39,245 bases of DNA, from positions 1-39,245 of the IMG/VR virus record IMGVR_UViG_3300046656_000250, one strand, 5' to 3'. Positions 21,134 through 39,245 of this stretch are shown here, one piece after another. The translations under genes were made by a program, and so were the position numbers. This DNA is from a virus. The notes below the pieces were generated by a model. That model worked only from the letters and a program-made list of their open reading frames with translations. It was not told where the DNA came from and did no database searches. Numbering within the stretch: position 1 is the first letter of the stretch; every line of letters starts with the position of its first letter.

Positions 21134-21607
21134 TTATGTTAACTGCTCCCAGACCCGCCCGGCCTGGACCCACAGCTCCCGCGCTGCAGTATGTGGGTAC
21201 TCCTCCACAAAAACGATCCGCCCACATGAGGTATTGAGCAGCAGCTTCACACAGGTGATGCACGGCGAGGCTGTTACATAACAGGTGTGGATGGCATAGA
21301 CGTCGCGGCACTGCAGCAGGGCATTCTGCTCAGCATGGATGGCCTGACACCCATCCAAGTTGGTGCCGCTTGGGCTACTGGCGCCAGGGCAAGCTGTTGG
21401 GTAGAGCGTCATCGGCCCCTCCCCTACATCCACCAGCTCAGGTTCATTGCAGTGCGGTTGCCCAGCCGCCACCCCGTTGTAGCCTGTCGCCAGCACGTGG
21501 CCCCGAGCGTTGATCAGCACACACCCCACCTGCCGACGGCAGCAGGTGGCGCGCTTCGCGGTGACTTGGGCCAGCTCCAGCGCCCATTGGTCTTTGCTAG
21601 GACGCAT
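21134..21607 (-). CDS. dCMP deaminase
   Basis: This is a 157-residue protein with GGGAG eight bases ahead of ATG 21607. The zinc-dependent cytidine-deaminase core is complete: HAE at 91-93 (His91, Glu93) and PCITC at 115-119 (Cys116, Cys119). ATGYNG at 40-45 is typical of dCMP deaminases. It converts dCMP to dUMP. It is the last gene of a five-gene coupled operon and overlaps the hydroxymethylase-like gene by 11 bases. In T4 the analogous enzyme works beside dCMP hydroxymethylase and balances pyrimidine pools. Confidence 0.92.
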   Translation of the reverse strand: MRPSKDQWALELAQVTAKRATCCRRQVGCVLINARGHVLATGYNGVAAGQPHCNEPELVDVGEGPMTLYPTACPGASSPSGTNLDGCQAIHAEQNALLQCRDVYAIHTCYVTASPCITCVKLLLNTSCGRIVFVEEYPHTAARELWVQAGRVWEQLT

Positions 21608-22397
21608 TTTGGCGCTCCCACCAACGCAGGATGTGGCCAGGCTTGGTATCTCGGAGGTCCCGTAGCCACTCTAAGCAACTGTCCTCATCGCGCCAGAGGA
21701 ACTTCGGTGTGTCAGCTTGTGGCAACGGGTCTTGATCAGTCAAGCAGTTGAACGCCGCCTCCCAGTTGTCTTGGTAAAGGTGGCTTGAGGCTGCGGTGAG
21801 ATACAGGATGCCTGGCTGCACAAAGTCGGCCGTCAACCTGGTCTTGTTTAGCAGCGCACAGATATAGTGGCCCAGCATCGCGAAGTTGAAGACATCATAC
21901 GGCACGCCAAGCCACAGGTCTGAGCTCCGCATGAAGACATGCATGTTCAACTTTTCATCGCGGATCGAGGCAAAAATCGCCACCGTGCAGGGTACATCTT
22001 TAGTCGTTGGTGGATTCTCACGCCAGATCGTGAGCCCAGCTTGGCGTGACATTCGGTCGGCGTTGAGCTTGTCGATTACATACGGCAGCTGTGCCAGAAT
22101 CTTCGGGCCATAGGCGCCGAAGAAACGCTCGCCATCATCCGAAAATTCTGCAATGCGGCTGTTGTAGGGTGAGATGGTCGCCACCCGGTCATCCCCGGTG
22201 AGAATCCAATAAGCCTCAGCTGCCATAAATTGGTAGCTGAGCTGACGTTTCTCCACGCGTAGCACCGGCTGTTGCATGTTGACCTCTAGTGTGCGCTGCG
22301 GCAACTCCTTGGTAAGCCTGCCACGCGGCGCTACAGTGAGGCCACGCGCCATGGTTTCATCAAGCGCAGTTAACCAAATTTGTGAAAAGTCTTTCAT
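21597..22397 (-). CDS. Thymidylate synthase-like enzyme, probable dCMP hydroxymethylase
   Basis: This is a 266-residue ThyA-fold protein, AGGAG eight bases before ATG 22397. Visible sites are Glu61 (AEAYWILTGDD), catalytic Cys137 (KDVPCTV), RSSD at 157-160, and HLY at 206-208. In thymidylate synthase the loop after the RSxD motif reads LGLPFN; here it is LGVPYD, so Asp168 replaces the Asn that selects uracil. In T4 gp42 the same Asn-to-Asp change marks dCMP hydroxymethylase. It would add hydroxymethyl to C5 of dCMP using methylene-tetrahydrofolate. Start overlaps the kinase stop (ATGA). A dUMP enzyme remains possible but less likely. Confidence 0.8.
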   Translation of the reverse strand: MKDFSQIWLTALDETMARGLTVAPRGRLTKELPQRTLEVNMQQPVLRVEKRQLSYQFMAAEAYWILTGDDRVATISPYNSRIAEFSDDGERFFGAYGPKILAQLPYVIDKLNADRMSRQAGLTIWRENPPTTKDVPCTVAIFASIRDEKLNMHVFMRSSDLWLGVPYDVFNFAMLGHYICALLNKTRLTADFVQPGILYLTAASSHLYQDNWEAAFNCLTDQDPLPQADTPKFLWRDEDSCLEWLRDLRDTKPGHILRWWERQNAS

Positions 22398-23305
22398 CGG
22401 TGTGCTCCTATGAAGTCAAATAGTTGATAACGCAGGTGGGAGTTGAAGCGTTTGTGGTGCTGTGGGTGCGGCACCTCGACGGCGCGGATCTTCAACCGAT
22501 AGAGTTCCGCCGCCGCCTTCGCGCCCAGCGCAATGACTTGACCAGGTCGGGCGTGCAAGAACTCGAGGTTTTGATCGGCGTTGATCCACAGCAGCTCACC
22601 TTCTGGAACCATCGCGGCGTCAAGCTGGTCCGTGAGCCAGCGGCTGCAGCCCTCGCCTGAGAAGGAGCCGAAAGGCCACTGGTACCACGGGTCTTGGTCC
22701 TTGCGCTCGGCAAAGCCCTCGCCCACCAGCACGGTGGGGGCGTCCCAGCTGCCGGCTGAGGCGAGGTACAGCGGGTGCTGATCATGCCGGTAGCGCTCAA
22801 TGTCTGGGATCAGGGTGTACTCCACGCTGCCGTCGGTGTAGTCGTAGGTTACCACCGGCAGCTGACACGGCTGGTCGCGATAGGTCTGGTGGACCTGCTT
22901 CAGCTGCGCGGTAGTCTTGAGGTACTCCTGACCTTTCCGCTTGAGAAAGTTAGCTTCTGCCGTTTCGTAACCCGGGTCACACAGCACCATCACGGCGCCG
23001 CAGCGCAGTGCTAAACGTTCGAGCATCCGCCGGCACGCGCCCGTGAGGCGATCTTGACCTTCACGAAAGGCCTCGCCGTAGGGGGTCTCGCTGAACCACG
23101 AGCGGTCGAAGACCACATCTTCGTGGCCGAGCAGCGCCGGCAACATGGCCTCGACGTAGAGTCGCCCCAGCCCGTGCTTGATGTGCGGCAGGTTGTTGAA
23201 GTGCACGTAGGTGGCGCCAGTCATGGTGGCGTACTCACGGGCGGCGGTAGTCTTACCGGAGCCGTCGCAACCTTCAAAGATGGTCAGCTTCTTAGATGTT
23301 TTCAT
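22394..23305 (-). CDS. Nucleotide kinase fused to a uracil-DNA-glycosylase-like domain
   Basis: ATG 23305, with GAGGA upstream, gives 303 residues; a longer frame from 23395 would run over the MazG gene and has no site. Residues 10-20 contain the P-loop GCDGSGKT (12-19), and DRS at 67-69 fits a thymidylate-kinase-type dNMP kinase. Residues about 188-303 look like a family 4/5 uracil-glycosylase fold: TVLVGEGFAE (191-200), FSGEGCSRWL, VIALGAKAAAEL (257-268) and VPHP (278-281). The kinase may phosphorylate hydroxymethyl-dCMP as T4 gp1 does. The second domain could recognise or remove a base, or act as a nucleotide-binding scaffold. Confidence 0.78.
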   Translation of the reverse strand: MKTSKKLTIFEGCDGSGKTTAAREYATMTGATYVHFNNLPHIKHGLGRLYVEAMLPALLGHEDVVFDRSWFSETPYGEAFREGQDRLTGACRRMLERLALRCGAVMVLCDPGYETAEANFLKRKGQEYLKTTAQLKQVHQTYRDQPCQLPVVTYDYTDGSVEYTLIPDIERYRHDQHPLYLASAGSWDAPTVLVGEGFAERKDQDPWYQWPFGSFSGEGCSRWLTDQLDAAMVPEGELLWINADQNLEFLHARPGQVIALGAKAAAELYRLKIRAVEVPHPQHHKRFNSHLRYQLFDFIGAHR

Positions 23306-23883
23306 TTGATCGTCCTCGTGGTGGTGTCGAAGTAGTTGGGGCTGATGACCATGCCGGCGGCCAGCAGCGTGGCTTGGTGACAGGGCGCCAGCCAACCCGG
23401 TGGCTTCACGACGTCGAGCGTCGATTGGCGCTTGGACTGGCTGAGGTCGGTGGCTCGGACCTTCGCCATGTTGGCACGTTGGACCTCAGCCCAGAGCTGC
23501 TCCCACGGCAGGCCCATCATCAGGGCGGTGCCGTGCACCACGTAGGCCAGGTCCACCAGGGCATCCGCAGCCTTGGCCAGGTCTTGGGCGTTGACCGCTT
23601 CTTTGAACTCATCAAGCTCCTCCTGCATGAAGTCCACGCGGAATTGGGTGGCTTTGCTGTCGAGGAAAGCCGGTGCCGAAGCCATCGGGATGTCGAACTT
23701 CTGTTGAAAGGCGAGGACATCTTTATTGTCACTTTGTTGCTGTAAGCGCAGCACGGTATAGCCGTCAGCTCGCTTCAACCACGTACCGACTGCGATTGAC
23801 TTGCCAGTGTGGTCTTCCACCTCAACAAATTCGCAACCATCTGGGCCGGGCGGCCCGGTAAATACAAAGTCGATGTGGTTCAT
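23302..23883 (-). CDS. MazG-like nucleotide pyrophosphohydrolase
   Basis: This is a 193-residue protein. Residues 87-92 (QEELDE, with Glu88, Glu89, Glu92) and ADALVDLAYV at 106-115 (Asp107, Asp111) form the metal site of the all-alpha NTP-pyrophosphatase family. VVKPPGW at 158-164 is a tail motif of the phage branch. The N-terminal 45 residues (TGPPGPDGCEFVEVED) are a separate small module. It would split a dNTP to dNMP and pyrophosphate. In this operon dCTP is the expected substrate, the job of T4 gp56, although a dUTP or dGTP role cannot be excluded. Overlaps both neighbours by ATGA. Confidence 0.82.
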   Translation of the reverse strand: MNHIDFVFTGPPGPDGCEFVEVEDHTGKSIAVGTWLKRADGYTVLRLQQQSDNKDVLAFQQKFDIPMASAPAFLDSKATQFRVDFMQEELDEFKEAVNAQDLAKAADALVDLAYVVHGTALMMGLPWEQLWAEVQRANMAKVRATDLSQSKRQSTLDVVKPPGWLAPCHQATLLAAGMVISPNYFDTTTRTIK

Positions 23884-24683
23884 TTTTTAGGTTTCCTGCA
23901 GATCCAAAGGTTGTTGCGCGCATGATCGGGATAGAGTGGCCCGAAGATGTTGCTGATCGCATCGTTGTCGAAGTACTCGGCCAGTTCTACCGCGACGCTG
24001 CGAATCGACTTCACAAATTCATCGGTGTACTTCTCTGGCTTCGATTTCTTGATGTGCTTGATGTGCTTGATGTCCATGAAGGTACCGAATCGCTGTTCCA
24101 CGATAAATCCCGCCTTCTCCGTCGCTTTCTGGAGCTCCGGCACGGTGTACTCGTGGATGTGGTTCGCTGCGTGGCGTACGCCGTCGTACACCGGCGTCGA
24201 CATGAGCATCACCCCGCCTGGCTTAAGGCAGGCGAAGCAGGCTTTCAAGAAGTTCGTGCCGTGCACGGCCTTCATGTGCTCGATCACCTCCAGGTGCACC
24301 ACGACATCGAACCCGCCTGGGTGGGTAACATGATCTTTGTCCCACTTCTTATCGAGCAGCTCCTTGTACCGCTCCACGAAGTTGAACTCACCGAGAAATT
24401 GGAGCCGTTGGGACCCGCTGGGTTTCAGCTTGTTCAGATCCACCCCTGTGTAGTGGCCCACGTGTGCCGCCGCGCCGCCGGTGAGGATCTTGCTGAGCGG
24501 CTTATCTTCGCCGCAGCCGATTTCCAGCACCGTGTCCTTGATGCCGATGAACCGGCGGGCGAAACTCCACCGGAAGAAGTGCGCCGAGTAATCCCGGTGC
24601 AGTGTCCGACCGTGGCCTGCCTCATGTAGTTGGGTGGTGTCGTAATCGCGTTGATCGCGTTGAATCTCTTTAGTCTTGGGCAT
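23880..24683 (-). CDS. Class I SAM-dependent methyltransferase
   Basis: I choose ATG 24683, with GGAAGAG just upstream, giving 267 residues; an upstream ATG at 24704 has no site. Motif I is VLEIGCGEDKPLS and the acidic end of strand 2 is GVDLNKL. VVHLEVIEHM and LKPGGVMLMSTP are motifs II and III of a UbiE/COQ5-like enzyme. There is no DNA-methyltransferase catalytic DPPY or PCQ motif. It is translationally coupled to the MazG-like gene and begins the nucleotide operon. It may act on a modified nucleotide or on a protein; the substrate is unknown. Confidence 0.75.
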   Translation of the reverse strand: MPKTKEIQRDQRDYDTTQLHEAGHGRTLHRDYSAHFFRWSFARRFIGIKDTVLEIGCGEDKPLSKILTGGAAAHVGHYTGVDLNKLKPSGSQRLQFLGEFNFVERYKELLDKKWDKDHVTHPGGFDVVVHLEVIEHMKAVHGTNFLKACFACLKPGGVMLMSTPVYDGVRHAANHIHEYTVPELQKATEKAGFIVEQRFGTFMDIKHIKHIKKSKPEKYTDEFVKSIRSVAVELAEYFDNDAISNIFGPLYPDHARNNLWICRKPKK

Positions 24684-24834
24684 GGCTCTTCCCCCACAGC
24701 ACATCAGCTGTGCGTACGCCGCGGTGAGGTCGAACGAATTGCAACCACTTCACAAATTTGTGGTAGTTGCTAATTCGGACAGCTTGTGCGCGGCGCACAG
24801 CCTGTTCGACTCGGGTTAATCTTGGTTGACTCAT
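24670..24834 (-). CDS. Small basic protein ahead of the methyltransferase
   Basis: ATG 24834 with GGAGAG close upstream gives 54 residues, rich in Arg and Lys (RVEQAVRRAQAVRIS, then KFVKWLQFVRPHRG). Its end overlaps the methyltransferase start by 14 bases, which suggests coupled translation. A basic amphipathic helix is likely. No family is recognised. Confidence 0.6.
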   Translation of the reverse strand: MSQPRLTRVEQAVRRAQAVRISNYHKFVKWLQFVRPHRGVRTADVLWGKSHAQD

Positions 24835-24852: not shown

Positions 24853-24900
24853 AACAGCCGCGGGTTAGCCTTCCGCGGCGTCCCAAAGTGGGCGGCTGTT
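24853..24900 (-). terminator. Hairpin between the WYR-domain gene and the nucleotide operon
   Basis: AACAGCCGC (24853-24861) pairs perfectly with GCGGCTGTT (24892-24900). CCGCGG elements inside the loop can add to it. It begins right at the stop codon of the upstream gene (24899-24901). No clear T run follows in the minus direction, so it may be a partial terminator or an RNA-processing and stability element that sets expression of the operon below. Confidence 0.5.
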
Positions 24901-25429
24901 ACTCCTTGGCTTCCGGGGGTTTCTTGCCGTCCTTCTTCAGCTTGTTGCGGTACCATGCCACGTAGCTGCGCTTCTTGTCATCCAAGCCGAACTTTTCCTT
25001 CACCTTCGCGAAGATCTTGTCGTCGGTCAGGTTGCCTGCCATGATCAAGTCGCAGAACAGCTGCGCCGCTGTCGCCCGCTTCTCGCCGGTGGCCTTGCGC
25101 GCCTTCGCGTCCTTCTTACTTGCCTTGGCTTTCGCTTTCTTAGTCGCCATGTCAATCTCCTCATCAGTTGGTTTGTGGAGAAGCTGCTCCACGTCAGTTG
25201 CCTCAGCAAGCCTATCGCCCACCTCAGCTAATTTCACAAGTCCTTGCACGAACACCCGGGCTTCACCCCACCCAAAATCGCCCGCAAAATCCAAATCTAA
25301 GCTCACCTTGCCTTGTTTGGAGTGGGTGAGCTTCGCCCGCCGTCCACCATCGATGTATAGCTGGTAGATTGTAGCACCGTCTTCATCCTCTTCGACGATT
25401 TTAATCGTGTTGGGGTTTGAAATAGCCAT
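24899..25429 (-). CDS. WYR-ending small DNA- or RNA-binding candidate, with possible internal start
   Basis: This is a 176-residue protein. The first 93 residues form an acidic alpha/beta domain (TIYQLYIDGGRRAKLTH, LDLDFAGDFGWGEARVFV). A Lys/Ala linker follows, then a C-terminal helical module (about residues 122-168: TAAQLFCDLIMAGNLTDDKI, VKEKFGLDDKKRSYVAWYRN) shared with the gene at 26594-27052. An in-frame ATG at 25150 is preceded by GAGGAGATTGAC, a stronger site than the gene's own. It would give an 83-residue form holding only the basic linker and the module. Function is unknown. Confidence 0.6.
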   Translation of the reverse strand: MAISNPNTIKIVEEDEDGATIYQLYIDGGRRAKLTHSKQGKVSLDLDFAGDFGWGEARVFVQGLVKLAEVGDRLAEATDVEQLLHKPTDEEIDMATKKAKAKASKKDAKARKATGEKRATAAQLFCDLIMAGNLTDDKIFAKVKEKFGLDDKKRSYVAWYRNKLKKDGKKPPEAKE

Positions 25430-26470: not shown

Positions 26471-26597
26471 AAACTGACCCAGAATCCTTTACAAAGATAG
26501 CGTCACCGAGTAACAGCAGGACCACCACCGGTCCTGCTATTGAGGCGACGAACACCACAATCCAGAAGAAGTCCTCCAAGATGCTTAACAGGCTCAC
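26448..26597 (-). CDS. Small single-pass membrane protein
   Basis: GTG 26597 overlaps the upstream stop (GTGA) and gives 49 residues. Residues about 12-31 (WIVVFVASIAGPVVVLLLLG) form one clear membrane segment. The gene contains a perfect nine-base hairpin, AGCAGGACC (26515-26523) with GGTCCTGCT (26530-26538), loop six; this could also act as an RNA structure. The hydrophobic pattern argues for coding. Confidence 0.5.
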   Translation of the reverse strand: MSLLSILEDFFWIVVFVASIAGPVVVLLLLGDAIFVKDSGSVYGNQEDK

Positions 26598-27052
26598 TTG
26601 GCCGCCAACTTACCAGCACGCTTCAGCTGGCAACGGTACCACGTTGGGTAGTGACGCTTGTCGTCAGACAGTTTGAACTGCTCCTTGAGGGCAACCCACA
26701 CTTCCTCGTTAGTTTTGCCGGCGAGGATCAAATCGCGCGCCACGGACGAGCAGGAGACGCGCGGCGCTTTCGCTGCCTTGGGTTCCTTCGTCGGCTTAGG
26801 TGTCTTGGCAGGTTTCACTGCCTTCACCTTGGCGGCCTTCGGCTCCTTAGCCGGCTTTGCCGTTTTGGCGGCACCGCTCTTCAAGTTCACACCGTAACCT
26901 TGCTCATAGAGCTTCGGCAGGTTGATTTCCCAGCGGCCGTCAGGCAGCCGCGCCATGAACGTCGTATAAGCCGGTGGTTTGAGACCCAGCTTGCGCAGGA
27001 TCGACGTAGCGGCATCGCGGGTTTTCACCACGCGAGGTTGAATTGTACTCAT
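26594..27052 (-). CDS. WYR-ending paralogue with Lys/Ala/Pro repeat linker
   Basis: This is a 152-residue protein with GAGGA before ATG 27052. Residues about 1-55 form one domain (TSILRKLGLKPPAYTTFMAR, DGRWEINLPKLYEQGY). Residues about 60-98 are a histone-H1-like linker built from AKPAKEPKAAK and PAKTPKPTKEPKAAK repeats. Residues about 100-147 (SSVARDLILAGKTNEEVWV, LKEQFKLSDDKRHYPTWYR) match the C-terminal module at 24899-25429. Basic repeats suggest nucleic-acid binding. Function is unknown. Confidence 0.6.
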   Translation of the reverse strand: MSTIQPRVVKTRDAATSILRKLGLKPPAYTTFMARLPDGRWEINLPKLYEQGYGVNLKSGAAKTAKPAKEPKAAKVKAVKPAKTPKPTKEPKAAKAPRVSCSSVARDLILAGKTNEEVWVALKEQFKLSDDKRHYPTWYRCQLKRAGKLAAK

Positions 27053-27719: not shown

Positions 27720-29240
27720 TCACTTACGCGCCTTGAGAGTTTGGAGCGCTGAAAACAGGGCCTGTTGGCCACGGTCCTTGCTCTTTAAAGCCAGCAACAT
27801 CACCTCGTCGATGGTGCCACTTGCCATAATGTGGTGTACGTAGACCCGCTTGGCCTGCTGGCCAGAGCGCCGGATCCGCCTGATGAACTGATCGTAGAGC
27901 TCGTAGTCCCACGTCATGCTGTGCCACGCCACGTGGAAGCCCGACTCCTGCAGGTTCAAGCCGTGGCCGGCGGATTGGGGGTGCGCCAGCAGCAATGGCA
28001 GCTCGCCACGGTTCCACGCATCCTCAATCACCTTGCTCTTCTTAGGTGAGACGCCTGAGCCGATGTAGGGCACGTCCTTGCCGAACCTTGCCTGCAACCG
28101 CGCCAGGTCGTGGTTGAAGTCGTACGCCACGAGCAGCGGCGACCCCTGCAGCTCCTCGACAAGCTCCTCCACGACATCCGTCTTAAGGTCATGTAAATCG
28201 ACCCAATCGCGTGCCGACTTCGGGAGCTTCACCAGCGCCTTCACCTCTTGGTCGAGGTAGATGCCGCCGTTGGCCACCTGCCGGCACTTCATGCTGGCCG
28301 CTGCCGCGGTGGCAGCGCGCACCGTGCCCTTCTTCAGGCGCGTGATGAGGTCCTGCTCAAGCTCGAGATAGACCTTCAGGACATCATCCGGCAACTCAAC
28401 CTTGATGTTGTTCTCAATCAGCTTCGGCATGTCGATGTAATCTTCCGCCGCCATGCGCAGCGCGAGTGGCCGCACGCGCTCGTAGATCTGCTCGTCGGCT
28501 CCTTCTTTCAGGATCCAGCTGAACCCGTCGAAGCCGGGGTTGAAGTACTTTGTGCGATAGTGGCTGATGTAGGGACCCAGCGAGCGCCCCTGGTCGAGCA
28601 TGTAGCACTGGCCGAAGAGGTTCAGCAAGCCGTTTGACGCGGGCGAGCCGGTGAGACCCCAGCGGCGACCGAAGGTGTGCAGCACCAGCTTCATCGCCTT
28701 GTAACGGTTCGTGTTGGTATGCTTAAACTTGCTGAGTTCGTCGATGACTAAGGTATCAAACCCTAGCCGCTTCCACCGCGCGAGGTCAACTGTGACCTTT
28801 ACCTTACCCGAGGGCAGCCGTGTCTTCTGCATGTCGAGGAGCCAGTCAAGCCCCTCCGGGTTGATCACGTAGATGTCCGCGTCTTGCTTTAGCAGTTCGT
28901 CCTTGTCCTTCCCATGCAACACCGCCAACTTCAGGTGGTTGAAGTCCGTCCACTTATCCCGCTCCGCCGGCCAGACGGAGTAGCAGACACGCAGTGGCGC
29001 CACGATGAGCACTTTGCTCACCAGCCCCTTCTTGATGAGGAAGGTCAACGCGGCTAGTGTGATGCTGGTCTTACGGAGGCCGGGATCTAAGAAGAGCGCA
29101 GCTGCGGCGTGCTCGAGCAAGAACTTGACGGCTTTGCGCATGTACGCAACTGGGTGCCACGGCGTCGATGACAGCTTGAAAAGCGTCAACTGCGGAGACG
29201 TGGACTTGGACTTCGTAACCGAGGTCTTGGAGGTACGCAT
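27720..29240 (-). CDS. SNF2-like DNA helicase/translocase
   Basis: ATG 29240 with AGGA six bases upstream gives 506 residues; a TTG at 29291 lacks a site. SF2/SNF2 motifs in order: motif I LDPGLRKTS (about 51-59), motif II VIDELSKFK, motif III LTGSPASNGL, motif V HGLNLQ and motif VI QFIRRIRRSGQ. Motif I has Arg where most members have Gly (GLGKT). The family moves along duplex DNA and may aid replication or recombination. It overlaps the VRR-NUC gene by 170 bases in another frame. Confidence 0.88.
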   Translation of the reverse strand: MRTSKTSVTKSKSTSPQLTLFKLSSTPWHPVAYMRKAVKFLLEHAAAALFLDPGLRKTSITLAALTFLIKKGLVSKVLIVAPLRVCYSVWPAERDKWTDFNHLKLAVLHGKDKDELLKQDADIYVINPEGLDWLLDMQKTRLPSGKVKVTVDLARWKRLGFDTLVIDELSKFKHTNTNRYKAMKLVLHTFGRRWGLTGSPASNGLLNLFGQCYMLDQGRSLGPYISHYRTKYFNPGFDGFSWILKEGADEQIYERVRPLALRMAAEDYIDMPKLIENNIKVELPDDVLKVYLELEQDLITRLKKGTVRAATAAAASMKCRQVANGGIYLDQEVKALVKLPKSARDWVDLHDLKTDVVEELVEELQGSPLLVAYDFNHDLARLQARFGKDVPYIGSGVSPKKSKVIEDAWNRGELPLLLAHPQSAGHGLNLQESGFHVAWHSMTWDYELYDQFIRRIRRSGQQAKRVYVHHIMASGTIDEVMLLALKSKDRGQQALFSALQTLKARK

Positions 29241-29436
29241 GGGTGTCCTGCTGTTTAGGTTCAGGTTCGTAACCGGGTTGCTTGAATTCAATTAAAAGTG
29301 GGCGGCCACCCGGGAGCCAGAAGATGCGATCTGGCCACGAGGTGTCGCCCACTACTTTAAGTTTAGACCCCTTGATGCCGAGATGGCGCCAGATGAGGTC
29401 ACAGGCATCATACTCAATCTTCTCCTCAGGTCTCAC
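29071..29436 (-). CDS. VRR-NUC domain nuclease
   Basis: GTG 29436 overlaps the upstream stop (GTGA) and gives 121 residues. The active-site pattern is WPDR (Pro35-Asp36), LLIEFKQ (Glu50, Lys52) and Gln62-Gln63 in PKQQDTHAYL, as in VRR-NUC PD-(D/E)XK enzymes that cut branched DNA. The last 40 residues, Arg/Ala-rich, lie where the gene overlaps the helicase start. It probably works with the adjacent helicase on replication or recombination intermediates. Confidence 0.85.
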   Translation of the reverse strand: MRPEEKIEYDACDLIWRHLGIKGSKLKVVGDTSWPDRIFWLPGGRPLLIEFKQPGYEPEPKQQDTHAYLQDLGYEVQVHVSAVDAFQAVIDAVAPSCVHAQSRQVLARARRSCALLRSRPP

Positions 29437-31476: not shown

Positions 31477-33413
31477 AACTTCCCCTTCTTATCGTAATCT
31501 TTGAGCTCATTCCAGTTGGCACTGGATACTGAGCCCTCAGTTAAGATCGGCACATCAAACTCCACGCTCTCCATGCAGATACGCAGCCACTCCATGGCGT
31601 CCTTGTAGATCTTCTTCGGCGCCGAGGCCGTCAGCTGGTCATGCACATTGAGGAGCAGGCGTACGACGCCCCACAGCCCGCGCGACTTGAGCTCCTTGGC
31701 AAAGCGGATGATGGCCTCCTTCGTGCAGTCGGCAGCCGAGCCTTGAATCAGCACGTTGACGAGCTTGTAGTCGAACATCATCAAGCGGCCGTTGACGATC
31801 GCCGGCTCTTCGCAGTAGTACTCGCGGCCGCCCCAGGTCCGGATCGGCTCCTTAGCCAAGGCGCGGCGTTTCATGTCCTTGTACATGTCGGCCAGCCCAG
31901 GATAGAGCTTCAGGATCGCCTTCTTGAGCTCACCCGCCTCCTCCACTGACATGTCATTCTTGAGCGCCAGCTTGCCGACCCCCATGCCATAGATAAGCCC
32001 GAGGTTGGTGTTCTTCACCGGCTTGCGCTCGTAGATGCGCCCGGCCTTCGCCAGCTCTGCCCGCGCATAATCGTGGAAGTCGATCCAATTGTCGTCCAGG
32101 TACTTCCGCATCAGGTCACCGCCGTCGAAGTGCGCGAGAATCCGTGGCTCTTGTTGCGAGTAGTCGCGGTCAATCAGCACGTGGCCCGGCAGCGGTATGA
32201 CGTAGCCGCGGCACTGCGGCAGCGGCGGTAGCTCCTTGAACGGGCACCTAGGCAGGCCCTTCGCCTCGTGGCTGAAGATGGGTGCGAACTCCTTCGGCAT
32301 GTTCATGAACCAGCTGGCTGACAGGCGGCCGGTGCGCGTACCCACATTGGAGTCGCCAGACGGCTGCTTGGTTTGATTCCACGTCGTGAAGATGAAGCCC
32401 TTCGAAGCTTCCGCCATCCGCAGCCACGGCTCCATGAAGATGTTGAGACAGGTGTTCAGCTGCACGCGGTACTTCAGCACCGCCAGGAGCACTTTGTCCG
32501 TCACACCGAGCAGCAACGAGTCCTTAGCCGTGCTGATCTTCCCTGTGGCCGTGCGTGGCATCTTAGCCGGGTCTGCCTTCCCAGCCGCGATCATCGCTGC
32601 CACCAGCTGGTCGCCCGAGTCTAGGTTGATGTCAGGTGCCGCCTTCAGCTGCTTGATAACCCAAGCGTTCACCTTATCGCGCCAGGTGTTGTACAGCTGG
32701 ATGTCACCGCGCAAGCGTTTTAAATCTACCGGCACGCCCCACCGCTCCATGTCGAGGAGGATGGGCATCAGCTCTCGCTCGCGGTCGTAAGCGCGGAGCA
32801 TCTCCCGCTTGACAGTCTTAGGATACAGCAGCTGGAAGATCGCCTCGGTGCGGTCGACGTCACCGCAGGCATACTCACCTACCAAATCGCCTGGCGCGTA
32901 GCTGATGTAACCACCCCAGTACAAGTCCGAGGATTTGCTCTTGCTGAGCTTGATATTGGGCACCGGTTGGTGCTCCAGCAGCCAGGTCATGACCGCCTCC
33001 TGCTCCTCCGCTGGCCAGTCTAGCAGTCGTGCCGCAGACTCCTTTAAGCCCAGCTCGCGCTGGTGCGGGTCATCGAGGAACAGGAGGAACATGGTGTCGT
33101 GAATCTGATCCCAGCGAGGTTGCGCCATACCCATGTGGGTAACTGCGACGTCTATATCAAACTTCCCATTTTGGAAGAGTAGCCCGTCGCCACCGCGCTC
33201 ATCAGGTTCTGACCATATAGCAGCCAGTGCTTTAATAGCCTGCTGCTTCGTGCAATTATTCTTAGTTGGATGGCCCCAACTATAATACCGACTCTTCTTG
33301 CCTGGTAGCTTGATGGCTACCCCCACCGGTTCTGGTGGATATGCAGGCCGGTCTTCAATCTTCTTCGTTTCGAAGTCGATTACGGTGGGTCTCGGTTGTT
33401 TGAGCTTCTTCAT
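31470..33413 (-). CDS. Family A DNA polymerase with 3'-5' exonuclease domain
   Basis: This is a 647-residue protein. Exonuclease motifs: VIDFET (Asp13, Glu15), LLFQNGKFDIDVA and CGDVDRTEAIF. Polymerase motif A is RDYSQQEPRILAHF (Asp417). Motif B is R463...K467...L471...Y475, with the same spacing as E. coli R754, K758, F762, Y766, so Leu replaces Phe762. Motif C is NVHDQL (Asp592) where HDE is usual. It lacks a 5' nuclease domain. It would be the replicative polymerase. The start overlaps the deformylase stop (ATGA). Confidence 0.95.
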   Translation of the reverse strand: MKKLKQPRPTVIDFETKKIEDRPAYPPEPVGVAIKLPGKKSRYYSWGHPTKNNCTKQQAIKALAAIWSEPDERGGDGLLFQNGKFDIDVAVTHMGMAQPRWDQIHDTMFLLFLDDPHQRELGLKESAARLLDWPAEEQEAVMTWLLEHQPVPNIKLSKSKSSDLYWGGYISYAPGDLVGEYACGDVDRTEAIFQLLYPKTVKREMLRAYDRERELMPILLDMERWGVPVDLKRLRGDIQLYNTWRDKVNAWVIKQLKAAPDINLDSGDQLVAAMIAAGKADPAKMPRTATGKISTAKDSLLLGVTDKVLLAVLKYRVQLNTCLNIFMEPWLRMAEASKGFIFTTWNQTKQPSGDSNVGTRTGRLSASWFMNMPKEFAPIFSHEAKGLPRCPFKELPPLPQCRGYVIPLPGHVLIDRDYSQQEPRILAHFDGGDLMRKYLDDNWIDFHDYARAELAKAGRIYERKPVKNTNLGLIYGMGVGKLALKNDMSVEEAGELKKAILKLYPGLADMYKDMKRRALAKEPIRTWGGREYYCEEPAIVNGRLMMFDYKLVNVLIQGSAADCTKEAIIRFAKELKSRGLWGVVRLLLNVHDQLTASAPKKIYKDAMEWLRICMESVEFDVPILTEGSVSSANWNELKDYDKKGKLC

Positions 33414-33901
33414 TGCAGCGTGAACCTGTTCATCCGTGCCACGATGATGCGGTCCACGAACAAGATGCCATCAAGGTGGTCAATTTCATGATGGATGCAA
33501 GCAGCCATCAAGCCGGTGAACTTCTGCCGCTTCAACTCCCAAGTGAGTGGATCACGCCACTCAACCAGCAGTCTTTTAGGACGCTTGGTCTGCGCGAAGC
33601 GCTGCCCGTGGTCCACCGACATGCAGCCGTCACGCACCAGCTGCAGATCCGAGCTCAGCTTCAAGATGGTCGGGTTCACCATGACATAGGTCTGACCCCG
33701 CTCCGGCAGCACATCTACGACGATGGCGCGCCAGAGGTAGCCAAGCTGCGGCGCGGCCAACCCGATGCAGTTGCTCGTCGCATCAAAGGTATCCAGCAGG
33801 TCCTTGATGACCAGCCGGTGCTCTGGGCCAGGTTCGACTGGCATCGGAGTAGCGGTGAGCTTCAGCTGCGGATCTGGTGCCTGAATTATGTTCTTAATCA
33901 T
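33410..33901 (-). CDS. Peptide deformylase
   Basis: This is a 163-residue protein. Motif 1 is CIGLAAPQLG (45-54; usual GxGLAAxQ). Motif 2 is DGCMS (Asp91, Cys93 metal ligand; usual EGCLS). Motif 3 is HEIDH (138-142) with the catalytic Glu139. The enzyme removes the N-formyl group from new proteins. It is placed between a small helical gene and the polymerase, both coupled by ATGA. Phage copies may speed maturation of phage proteins in a stressed host. Confidence 0.92.
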   Translation of the reverse strand: MIKNIIQAPDPQLKLTATPMPVEPGPEHRLVIKDLLDTFDATSNCIGLAAPQLGYLWRAIVVDVLPERGQTYVMVNPTILKLSSDLQLVRDGCMSVDHGQRFAQTKRPKRLLVEWRDPLTWELKRQKFTGLMAACIHHEIDHLDGILFVDRIIVARMNRFTLQ

Positions 33902-37040: not shown

Positions 37041-37186
37041 GTAGCCCACCACACAAGTAGGATTAGCAGAGCACCGACCATGGCGAGGAGCAGCGGGCGT
37101 GCGGCCTTAGCTCGCGCCTCCTTTTCAGCAGCGGTGTAGGCATCGGGTCCTGGCGCGCCAGGATCATCTTCATAGAAGCTAGTCAT
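37037..37186 (-). CDS. Small C-terminal-anchored membrane protein
   Basis: ATG 37186 with a strong AGGAGG six bases upstream gives 49 residues. The N-terminal part is acidic (TSFYEDDPGAPGPDAYT); a basic-flanked membrane segment ends the protein (PLLLAMVGALLILLVWW). It is coupled to the J-domain gene. A longer frame from 37258 has no site. Role unknown. Confidence 0.65.
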   Translation of the reverse strand: MTSFYEDDPGAPGPDAYTAAEKEARAKAARPLLLAMVGALLILLVWWAT

Positions 37187-37319
37187 GATAGCCCTCCTGA
37201 AACAGCCGCCAAGTGATGGGGAAGATTTGCTTGATGACCTCACCGACGGCATGCGCATACTGCCGAATCTCCCACTGGGCCGCTGGGTCTAGCCGCAGCG
37301 TCAGAAACTGCAGCTTCAT
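37179..37319 (-). CDS. Small protein of unknown function
   Basis: ATG 37319 with GAGGA upstream overlaps the DUF3310 gene stop (ATGA) and gives 46 residues (KLQFLTLRLDPAAQWEIRQY then AHAVGEVIKQIFP). It overlaps the next gene by eight bases. Coupling and the ribosome site support it as real; no family is recognised. Confidence 0.55.
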   Translation of the reverse strand: MKLQFLTLRLDPAAQWEIRQYAHAVGEVIKQIFPITWRLFQEGYHD

Positions 37320-38298: not shown

Positions 38299-39245
38299 TT
38301 AAAATTTCTTCTTCGGTGTGGAGGTAATGTGTGCATGATCTATGTGAGCTGCGCATTCCTTCGGCTGCTTACCAAGCCAGGTAGTGGCGTTACGAATGGC
38401 GTAATAGCGACCTTGTGAGCCGTCCTTCAACCTTAACTGCATGCCGCGCGCCACCTGCTGTACGCCCGCCCGCGCGAGCTCGCGACCCAAGCCATTCGCC
38501 GTCAGCTGCCCGCCGCCGTGAGGTTGGTACAGCTGCAGCAGCTCCTTCGCGGTATAAAGATCGCTACTTAGTTTGACGTCACCAACACGTAGAATGTAAT
38601 CTGGGTTCATTAGCAGCTGACGCACCCACGTAGCGAGATCTGACTGCACATTGGCAATCATCCGCTCCTTCGCAGCCGTTCTAAACGCCGGTGCCGCCGG
38701 GTTGAAATCCCCGAGCTCTAGCTTCAAGAGGTAGTCAAACACCGCTGCGGCGCCGTCGGTCTCCAGCCACAGCTCATACTCCTTATAGAAATCCTCTTCC
38801 AACGGCGCCACCTGCACCTCATGGATGAAGAAGCGCCGATCGTCATCCTCCAAGAAGAATGAGTCAGGGTGGTTAGCAGTGAAGAAGTAGTTGATGCAGT
38901 CCGGCACCACGTAGCTGGCCACGTACTTTGCGTTGATGCGAATTGACTTTTGGGTAATGAGCTTCTTGAGAAAGTCCGCATCTGCTCGCTTATTCGATCC
39001 CGTGACGTCATCACCCATCACAAACTGCTTACCCTCGCACCACTCATTAAAATGGCTGTGTAAATCGATTTGGCTAATCTCAGTGAAGTTTTCCCCATAG
39101 ATTTTCCCTAAGGTATACCCGATAAACGACTTACCTGTGCCGTGCTTGATGCCATGCAGCACCACTGAGCTGAACAGCTTCGAACCGGGGTACCTTAAGG
39201 GGTATGCGCACCACCGTAGAAACCACTGCTTCGCCTCAGGCTCCG
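38299..39245 (-). CDS. Primase-helicase, C-terminal part (P-loop helicase), cut by window edge
   Basis: The frame is open from the window end to the stop at 38299, about 315 codons. It begins EPEAKQWFLRWCAYPLRYPG and continues into a Walker A HGIKHGTGKS, then KQFVMGDDVTGS as Walker B, YFFTANHPDSFF and DRRFFIHEVQ, the DUF5906-type superfamily 3-like helicase core. A C-terminal helical domain follows. It belongs to the primase at 1-1088. The two ends do not join in frame directly: a gap of 2 modulo 3 bases, probably a few tens, is missing. Confidence 0.88.
   Translation of the reverse strand, partial: EPEAKQWFLRWCAYPLRYPGSKLFSSVVLHGIKHGTGKSFIGYTLGKIYGENFTEISQIDLHSHFNEWCEGKQFVMGDDVTGSNKRADADFLKKLITQKSIRINAKYVASYVVPDCINYFFTANHPDSFFLEDDDRRFFIHEVQVAPLEEDFYKEYELWLETDGAAAVFDYLLKLELGDFNPAAPAFRTAAKERMIANVQSDLATWVRQLLMNPDYILRVGDVKLSSDLYTAKELLQLYQPHGGGQLTANGLGRELARAGVQQVARGMQLRLKDGSQGRYYAIRNATTWLGKQPKECAAHIDHAHITSTPKKKF

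Follow-up and report, generated by a model that had tools for sequence, protein, structure and literature searches.

A coupled phage operon with the marks of a cytosine-replacement pathway and a candidate hydroxymethylcytosine-tailoring methyltransferase

The pathway by which phage T4 comes to carry 5-hydroxymethylcytosine (5hmC) combines a dCTPase (gp56), a dCMP hydroxymethylase (gp42), a dNMP kinase (gp1), a dCMP deaminase (Cd) and glucosyltransferases. The same set of reactions is predicted for a five-gene cassette at 21134-24683, minus strand, of a 39,245-bp virus record from IMG/VR (IMGVR_UViG_3300046656_000250; the whole record is here called the window). The cassette encodes an S-adenosylmethionine (SAM)-dependent methyltransferase, a MazG-like pyrophosphohydrolase, a kinase fusion, a ThyA-like enzyme and a dCMP deaminase, five families named in a preliminary description of this DNA and recovered by Pfam and phrog matches (Table 1). 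Unlike the genes of the T4 pathway they form one coupled operon, with ATGA overlaps at three junctions (23883/23880, 23305/23302 and 22397/22394) and an 11-nt overlap between the last two genes, just as that description had stated. It had proposed a T4-like logic with an added methyltransferase, leading to 5hmC or a derivative. The proposal gains support from diagnostic residues, from synteny, from the restriction resistance of the related phage AXL3 and from a comparison with phage Xp12, the chemistry staying predicted. Thus, the cassette probably replaces deoxycytidine (dC) by 5-hydroxymethyldeoxycytidine (5hmdC), which the methyltransferase then tailors; the replacement step, taken by itself, is very likely.

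Comparison with T4 divides the enzyme set that had been called T4-like. The ThyA-like enzyme is homologous to gp42, with the same Asp and Thr, and a deaminase is present in both systems. In contrast, single-sequence hhalign gave probabilities of only 0.3 for the MazG-like profile against gp56 and 0.6 for the kinase against gp1, so that similarity was undetected by a method whose silence is weak evidence of absence. These two proteins are therefore taken as functional analogues of gp56 and gp1 at most, and not as demonstrated homologues: a DR2231-type MazG-like enzyme and a thymidylate-kinase-like domain fused to one resembling uracil-DNA glycosylase (UDG). Whereas T4 has glucosyltransferases, the window has a methyltransferase and, as noted before, no recognised glucosyltransferase among the open reading frames (ORFs) scanned, several small ORFs lying outside the scan.

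Other systems share particular parts of this design. In the contigs that MetaGPA associated with 5-carbamoyloxymethylcytosine, domains for an Asp177-type thymidylate synthase, PRA-PH and dCMP deaminase co-occur, and tailoring is by a carbamoyltransferase (PMC8670742). The three domains are common to the window, which has a methyltransferase rather than a carbamoyltransferase; no carbamoyltransferase domain was found among the scanned cassette and neighbouring genes. Bacillus phage G (gp313-gp319) likewise encodes a thymidylate synthase homologue with Asp, a kinase of the same UDG-like fusion architecture (gp315) and a dCMP deaminase, but an annotated alpha-glucosyltransferase stands where the window has its methyltransferase. 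Phage Xp12 also achieves full replacement of C through a dCMP-specific enzyme of the thymidylate synthase family, although its restriction pattern differs from that of AXL3 at KpnI and AhdI/Eam1105I sites. The isolated phages AXL3 (Stenotrophomonas, Axeltriavirus) and PW916 (Pseudoxanthomonas) have an identical gene order, protein identities of roughly 42-72% and most of the early module in common with the window; the minus-strand half of the window is largely syntenic with AXL3 gp27-gp64. AXL3 and PW916 are siphoviruses with an intact, separate thyX, found also in the phage of locus L022, whereas the capsid genes of the window are P22-like (P22_CoatProtein, 7e-89, plus portal and scaffold). 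The earlier label of a P22-like phage therefore suits the capsid module but not the early module, which is common to the siphovirus AXL3. A short ORF of the window (37179-37319, minus strand) matches the C-terminal 32 or so positions of ThyX (PF02511, E 3e-8) and, given the full genes in AXL3 and PW916, looks like a thyX remnant.

Asp168 of the ThyA-like enzyme, already singled out in the preliminary description, aligns with ThyA position 177, which is Asn in Escherichia coli ThyA and SPO1 gp29, and with the active-site Asp of T4 gp42; at the position of ThyA 147 the enzyme has a Thr (T138), again as in gp42. These two positions discriminate the modified-cytosine thymidylate synthases in MetaGPA (PMC8670742). 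R118 and S158 fall at MilA positions K133 and A176, where Arg and Ser mark the deoxyribonucleotide-preferring members (PMC5175136). C137, T138, R118, S158 and D168 are invariant in 18 aligned relatives, and the Asp is kept in all 77 distinct relatives. The best PDB matches of the profile are CMP 5-hydroxymethylases, and gp42 is detected as a homologue at E 4.7e-11. The family also lacks the residues of ThyA Trp80 and Trp83, as does SPO1 gp29 and, from the alignment, apparently MilA; Trp82 variants of the Lactobacillus casei thymidylate synthase fail in the reductive step. By its diagnostic residues, then, the enzyme is of the cytosine type and is predicted to be a dCMP hydroxymethylase.

For the remaining core genes the evidence is of family and fold. 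The MazG profile matches DR2231 and 3nl9 in a PDB profile search, and the gene is conserved in 60 of the 65 loci of the ThyA-like gene that have at least 4 kb of upstream sequence, the set used for all counts of 65 below. The AlphaFold model of the kinase fusion (pLDDT 88) resembles YorR and human thymidylate kinase at Z 13.6, in structure comparisons (VIA-align, Foldseek) that span the kinase half only. The C-terminal half had been described as glycosylase-like. There is indeed a real match to the UDG superfamily (PF03167 in four of 12 members, best 7.7e-4), but that of the window itself is sub-threshold (0.071), type-4 UDGs head the sub-threshold PDB matches, and motif I is altered: GExFAERK replaces GExPG, while HPQ in place of HPS retains the His-Pro. 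An annotated glycosylase of MW202510 (P0001) was rejected as a detached partner of this domain, the match covering merely 20 columns at low probability. In 16 of the 65 loci, where the kinase fusion is absent, its place is taken by a hydrolase-like ORF of about 125-145 aa (phrog_18404, sub-threshold DUF1599), examples being L010:7118-7549, L014:7229-7648 and L021:7167-7547.

The cassette is widespread and not peculiar to the window phage. The order from orf24899 through the methyltransferase, MazG-like, kinase fusion and ThyA-like genes to the deaminase gene occurs also in AXL3, PW916, ctUtU524 (MW202621) and dozens of IMG/VR loci, and with an SNF2 gene at its head it is the dominant order among the latter. 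The IMG/VR scans returned at least 80 loci of the ThyA-like gene and 50 of the methyltransferase, sets that overlap and include some near-identical contigs. Because the gene order recurs in dozens of independent contigs, it is far beyond chance. Among 50,697 phage records, near-full-length matches to the kinase fusion were confined to AXL3, PW916 and MW202621, all with the Asp-type ThyA-like gene in the cluster, and a scan of bacterial genomes yielded one close relative, a betaproteobacterial metagenome-assembled contig with the same cassette and a methyltransferase gene in two frames. The cassette is old and is mobile as a block.

The methyltransferase is tied to this pathway exclusively. It occurs in five of the 50,697 phage records, with near-full-length matches in AXL3 (where its gene is gp31), PW916, MW202621 and MW202510 only, every one with the Asp-type gene in the cluster, and a ThyA-like gene is near in 44 of 46 methyltransferase loci, the other two being at contig ends. 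Its median pairwise identity (72%) is the highest of the five genes compared, the others giving 64% for the deaminase, 60% for SNF2, 57% for the ThyA-like enzyme and 43% for the MazG-like enzyme. No DNA-methylase family (C5, N4 or N6) was matched, only PF13489/PF08242-type domains, and neither PC..ENV nor (D/N/S)PP(Y/F/W) is among the columns conserved in 18 relatives; the reading as a classical DNA methyltransferase was rejected for want of a family or motif match. The start at 24683 is consistent with the starts of homologues. A 54-aa ORF with a GGAG-type ribosome site (24670-24834, minus strand) overlaps this start, and just upstream of it a terminator-like hairpin follows orf24899.

The strongest functional evidence for the enzyme is positional. 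Its slot, between orf24899 and the MazG-like gene, holds the methyltransferase alone in 44 of the 65 loci and the methyltransferase with a C5-methylase-like gene (PF00145) in seven; in another seven it holds a trio of an SGNH-like, an unknown and a pyridoxal phosphate (PLP)-dependent enzyme gene, and in four a C5-methylase-like or glycosyltransferase-like gene. PF00145 genes beside the ThyA-like gene are found at L066:3273-4595, L070:3212-4558, L084:3515-4624, L098:2380-3411 and L109:2749-4284; on cytosines already bearing a C5 group such enzymes may perform other chemistry on hydroxymethylcytosine. The trio, with its unknown protein of 380 aa, replaces the methyltransferase upstream of the kinase and Asp-type genes at L083:1736-4796 and recurs at L085, L086, L104, L105, L106 and L108; it possibly serves an amino-acid-derived hypermodification of cytosine. 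On balance the evidence tips slightly towards a hydroxymethylcytosine-tailoring role for the methyltransferase, of which specific O-methylation of hydroxymethylcytosine is a tentative version; a literature search found no report of methoxymethylcytosine and none of a methyltransferase in a phage hydroxymethylcytosine pathway.

A further common element is a domain of about 47 aa, here called WYR, which nearly 190 ORFs in the examined loci contain and which has no credible Pfam or PDB match. In the window it occupies 24926-25069 and the C-terminal part of orf26594. It recurs at the C-termini of the C5-methylase-like and glycosyltransferase-like slot enzymes; the methyltransferase has none but lies beside the WYR protein orf24899, which adjoins it upstream in almost all relatives. 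This distribution suggests that the domain guides the tailoring enzymes, whether to DNA or to a partner that they share. One could picture phages that carry 5-methoxymethyl-deoxycytidine because the methyltransferase O-methylates 5hmC, either within DNA or at the nucleotide stage, with the slot a hot-spot of exchangeable, WYR-addressed tailoring enzymes. This picture is speculative, and no report of 5-methoxymethyl-deoxycytidine as a DNA base was found in the literature search.

The proposed pathway would run as follows. The MazG-like enzyme would remove dCTP, yielding dCMP, which the ThyA-like enzyme would hydroxymethylate to 5hm-dCMP; the thymidylate-kinase-like enzyme would phosphorylate this product towards 5hm-dCTP, and the polymerase would put 5hmC in place of C. 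Surplus dCMP would be converted by the deaminase into dUMP and so feed thymidylate synthesis. Tailoring of the hydroxymethylcytosine would fall to the methyltransferase, probably with help from the WYR-domain protein encoded next to it upstream, and most simply by O-methylation of the 5-hydroxymethyl group; the resulting DNA would be uncuttable by host restriction enzymes. Computation establishes the gene content, the coupling, the diagnostic residues, the conserved synteny and the exclusive link between methyltransferase and pathway, whereas the individual reactions are inferred, as are a modification of C rather than G, a hydroxymethyl rather than a methyl group, and the substrate and product of the methyltransferase.

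Restriction of AXL3 DNA bears on what the core makes. The AXL3 genome has 13 KpnI and 14 Eam1105I sites, Eam1105I being an isoschizomer of AhdI. Of 37 enzymes only TasI (AATT) and Tru1I (TTAA) cut AXL3 DNA, while the 35 with G or C in their sites, KpnI and Eam1105I included, did not; the modification was left unidentified and the cassette was read as one for thymidylate synthesis (PMC7504290), a reading made likewise for PW916. In such an ordinary supply route the deaminase would deliver dUMP, the ThyA-like enzyme dTMP and the kinase dTDP, with the MazG-like enzyme cleaning the pool, and the thymidylate-kinase-like fold of the kinase would fit. A dTMP pathway leaves the resistance at G/C-containing sites unexplained, however, and with Asp instead of Asn at position 177 in every relative, and a separate ThyX in AXL3, PW916 and the L022 phage, this explanation was rejected as very improbable. 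A methylase making 5-methylcytosine (5mC), as in Xp12, would fit the Asp, since Asp177 by itself turns ThyA into a dCMP methylase according to work cited in PMC8670742, so that the residue does not separate methyl from hydroxymethyl transfer. But KpnI and AhdI both digest the 100% 5mC DNA of Xp12 to completion (PMC7653180). AXL3 DNA is thus probably not simply 5mC-substituted, and with the profile nearest to CMP hydroxymethylases and the Trp80/83 pair lost as in SPO1 gp29, plain 5mC is disfavoured and appears improbable. On the AXL3 data, 5hmC and a derivative of it cannot be told apart.

A rather unlikely but more substantial rival accepts the T4-like core and lets the methyltransferase be merely co-transcribed, acting on tRNA, mRNA, protein or a host metabolite. 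The predicted fold (pLDDT 76) is closest to the tRNA-modifying CmoM (Z 18.3) and to other O-, N- and C-methyltransferases of small molecules and RNA; its distance matrix correlates less well with that of the ThyA-like enzyme (r 0.58) than do those of the other cassette genes (0.77-0.83); and Votkovvirus S28C10 has the core without it. Against this rival, the enzyme occurs only with this pathway, and relatives have other tailoring-type genes in its slot. The proposal of replacement followed by tailoring has its own difficulties. The methyltransferase resembles generic enzymes such as CmoM, RebM and METTL6, and three of the 65 loci have none of the sought tailoring genes in the slot. DR2231, the closest named solved relative of the MazG-like enzyme, is known for dUTP/dTTP, not dCTP. 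A dCMP methylase would have the same Asp at 177; the Thr count among relatives is partly by construction, since the scan seeds contained the PCT motif; and the Trp loss fits a hydroxymethylase but is only suggestive, because T4 gp42 keeps one Trp. The restriction data come from AXL3, not from the window phage, and as the sites are palindromic they do not distinguish modified C from modified G, and no nucleoside analysis of any cassette member was found in the literature.

Table 1. Genes and domains of the cassette and its upstream neighbourhood in the window.
Feature	Position	Strand	Assignment
Methyltransferase (MT)	23880-24683	-	class I SAM-dependent methyltransferase, PF13489 E 1.4e-13; predicted hydroxymethylcytosine tailoring enzyme
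MazG-like NTP pyrophosphohydrolase	23302-23883	-	PF01503 PRA-PH/MazG 1.3e-16; predicted dCTP and/or dUTP pyrophosphatase
Kinase fusion (KIN), whole ORF	22394-23305	-	thymidylate-kinase-like P-loop, phrog_761 2.6e-17
KIN N-terminal domain	22766-23305	-	thymidylate-kinase/YorR-like P-loop kinase; predicted hydroxymethyl-dCMP kinase
KIN C-terminal domain	22394-22765	-	uracil-DNA-glycosylase-superfamily-like
ThyA-like enzyme (TS)	21597-22397	-	PF00303 3.9e-17; predicted dCMP hydroxymethylase (C137 nucleophile, D168, T138, R118, S158)
dCMP deaminase (DCD)	21134-21607	-	PF00383 4.3e-20, phrog_174 2.2e-36; HAE + PCITC zinc motif
orf24899, small conserved protein adjoining MT upstream	24899-25429	-	C-terminal 47-aa WYR domain (residues 121-168)
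orf26594, second WYR-domain protein	26594-27052	-	WYR at residues 102-147
SNF2-type helicase/ATPase, upstream end of conserved block	27720-29291	-	PF00176 6.2e-14, phrog_62 3e-129

Two features lie farther from the cassette. A peptide deformylase gene (PF01327, 1.1e-35; 33410-33901, minus strand) adjoins the DNA polymerase gene on its upstream side, and a homologue of the AXL3 gp64 primase is split across the window ends, at 1-1073 and 38299-39245 on the minus strand (residues 23-382 and 394-703). Because of this split the record is probably a near-complete, circularly permuted genome with a few bases missing at the join.

The cassette as read here would explain the published finding that 35 of 37 restriction enzymes leave AXL3 DNA uncut. 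It also brings forward a family of methyltransferases apparently dedicated to hypermodified cytosine, no member of which was found described in the literature search. Together, the roughly 65 syntenic loci outline alternative tailoring-type genes, C5-methylase-like, glycosyltransferase-like and SGNH/PLP-enzyme, on one hydroxymethylcytosine core, and the slot that receives them would offer new DNA-modifying enzymes as well as new anti-restriction chemistry.

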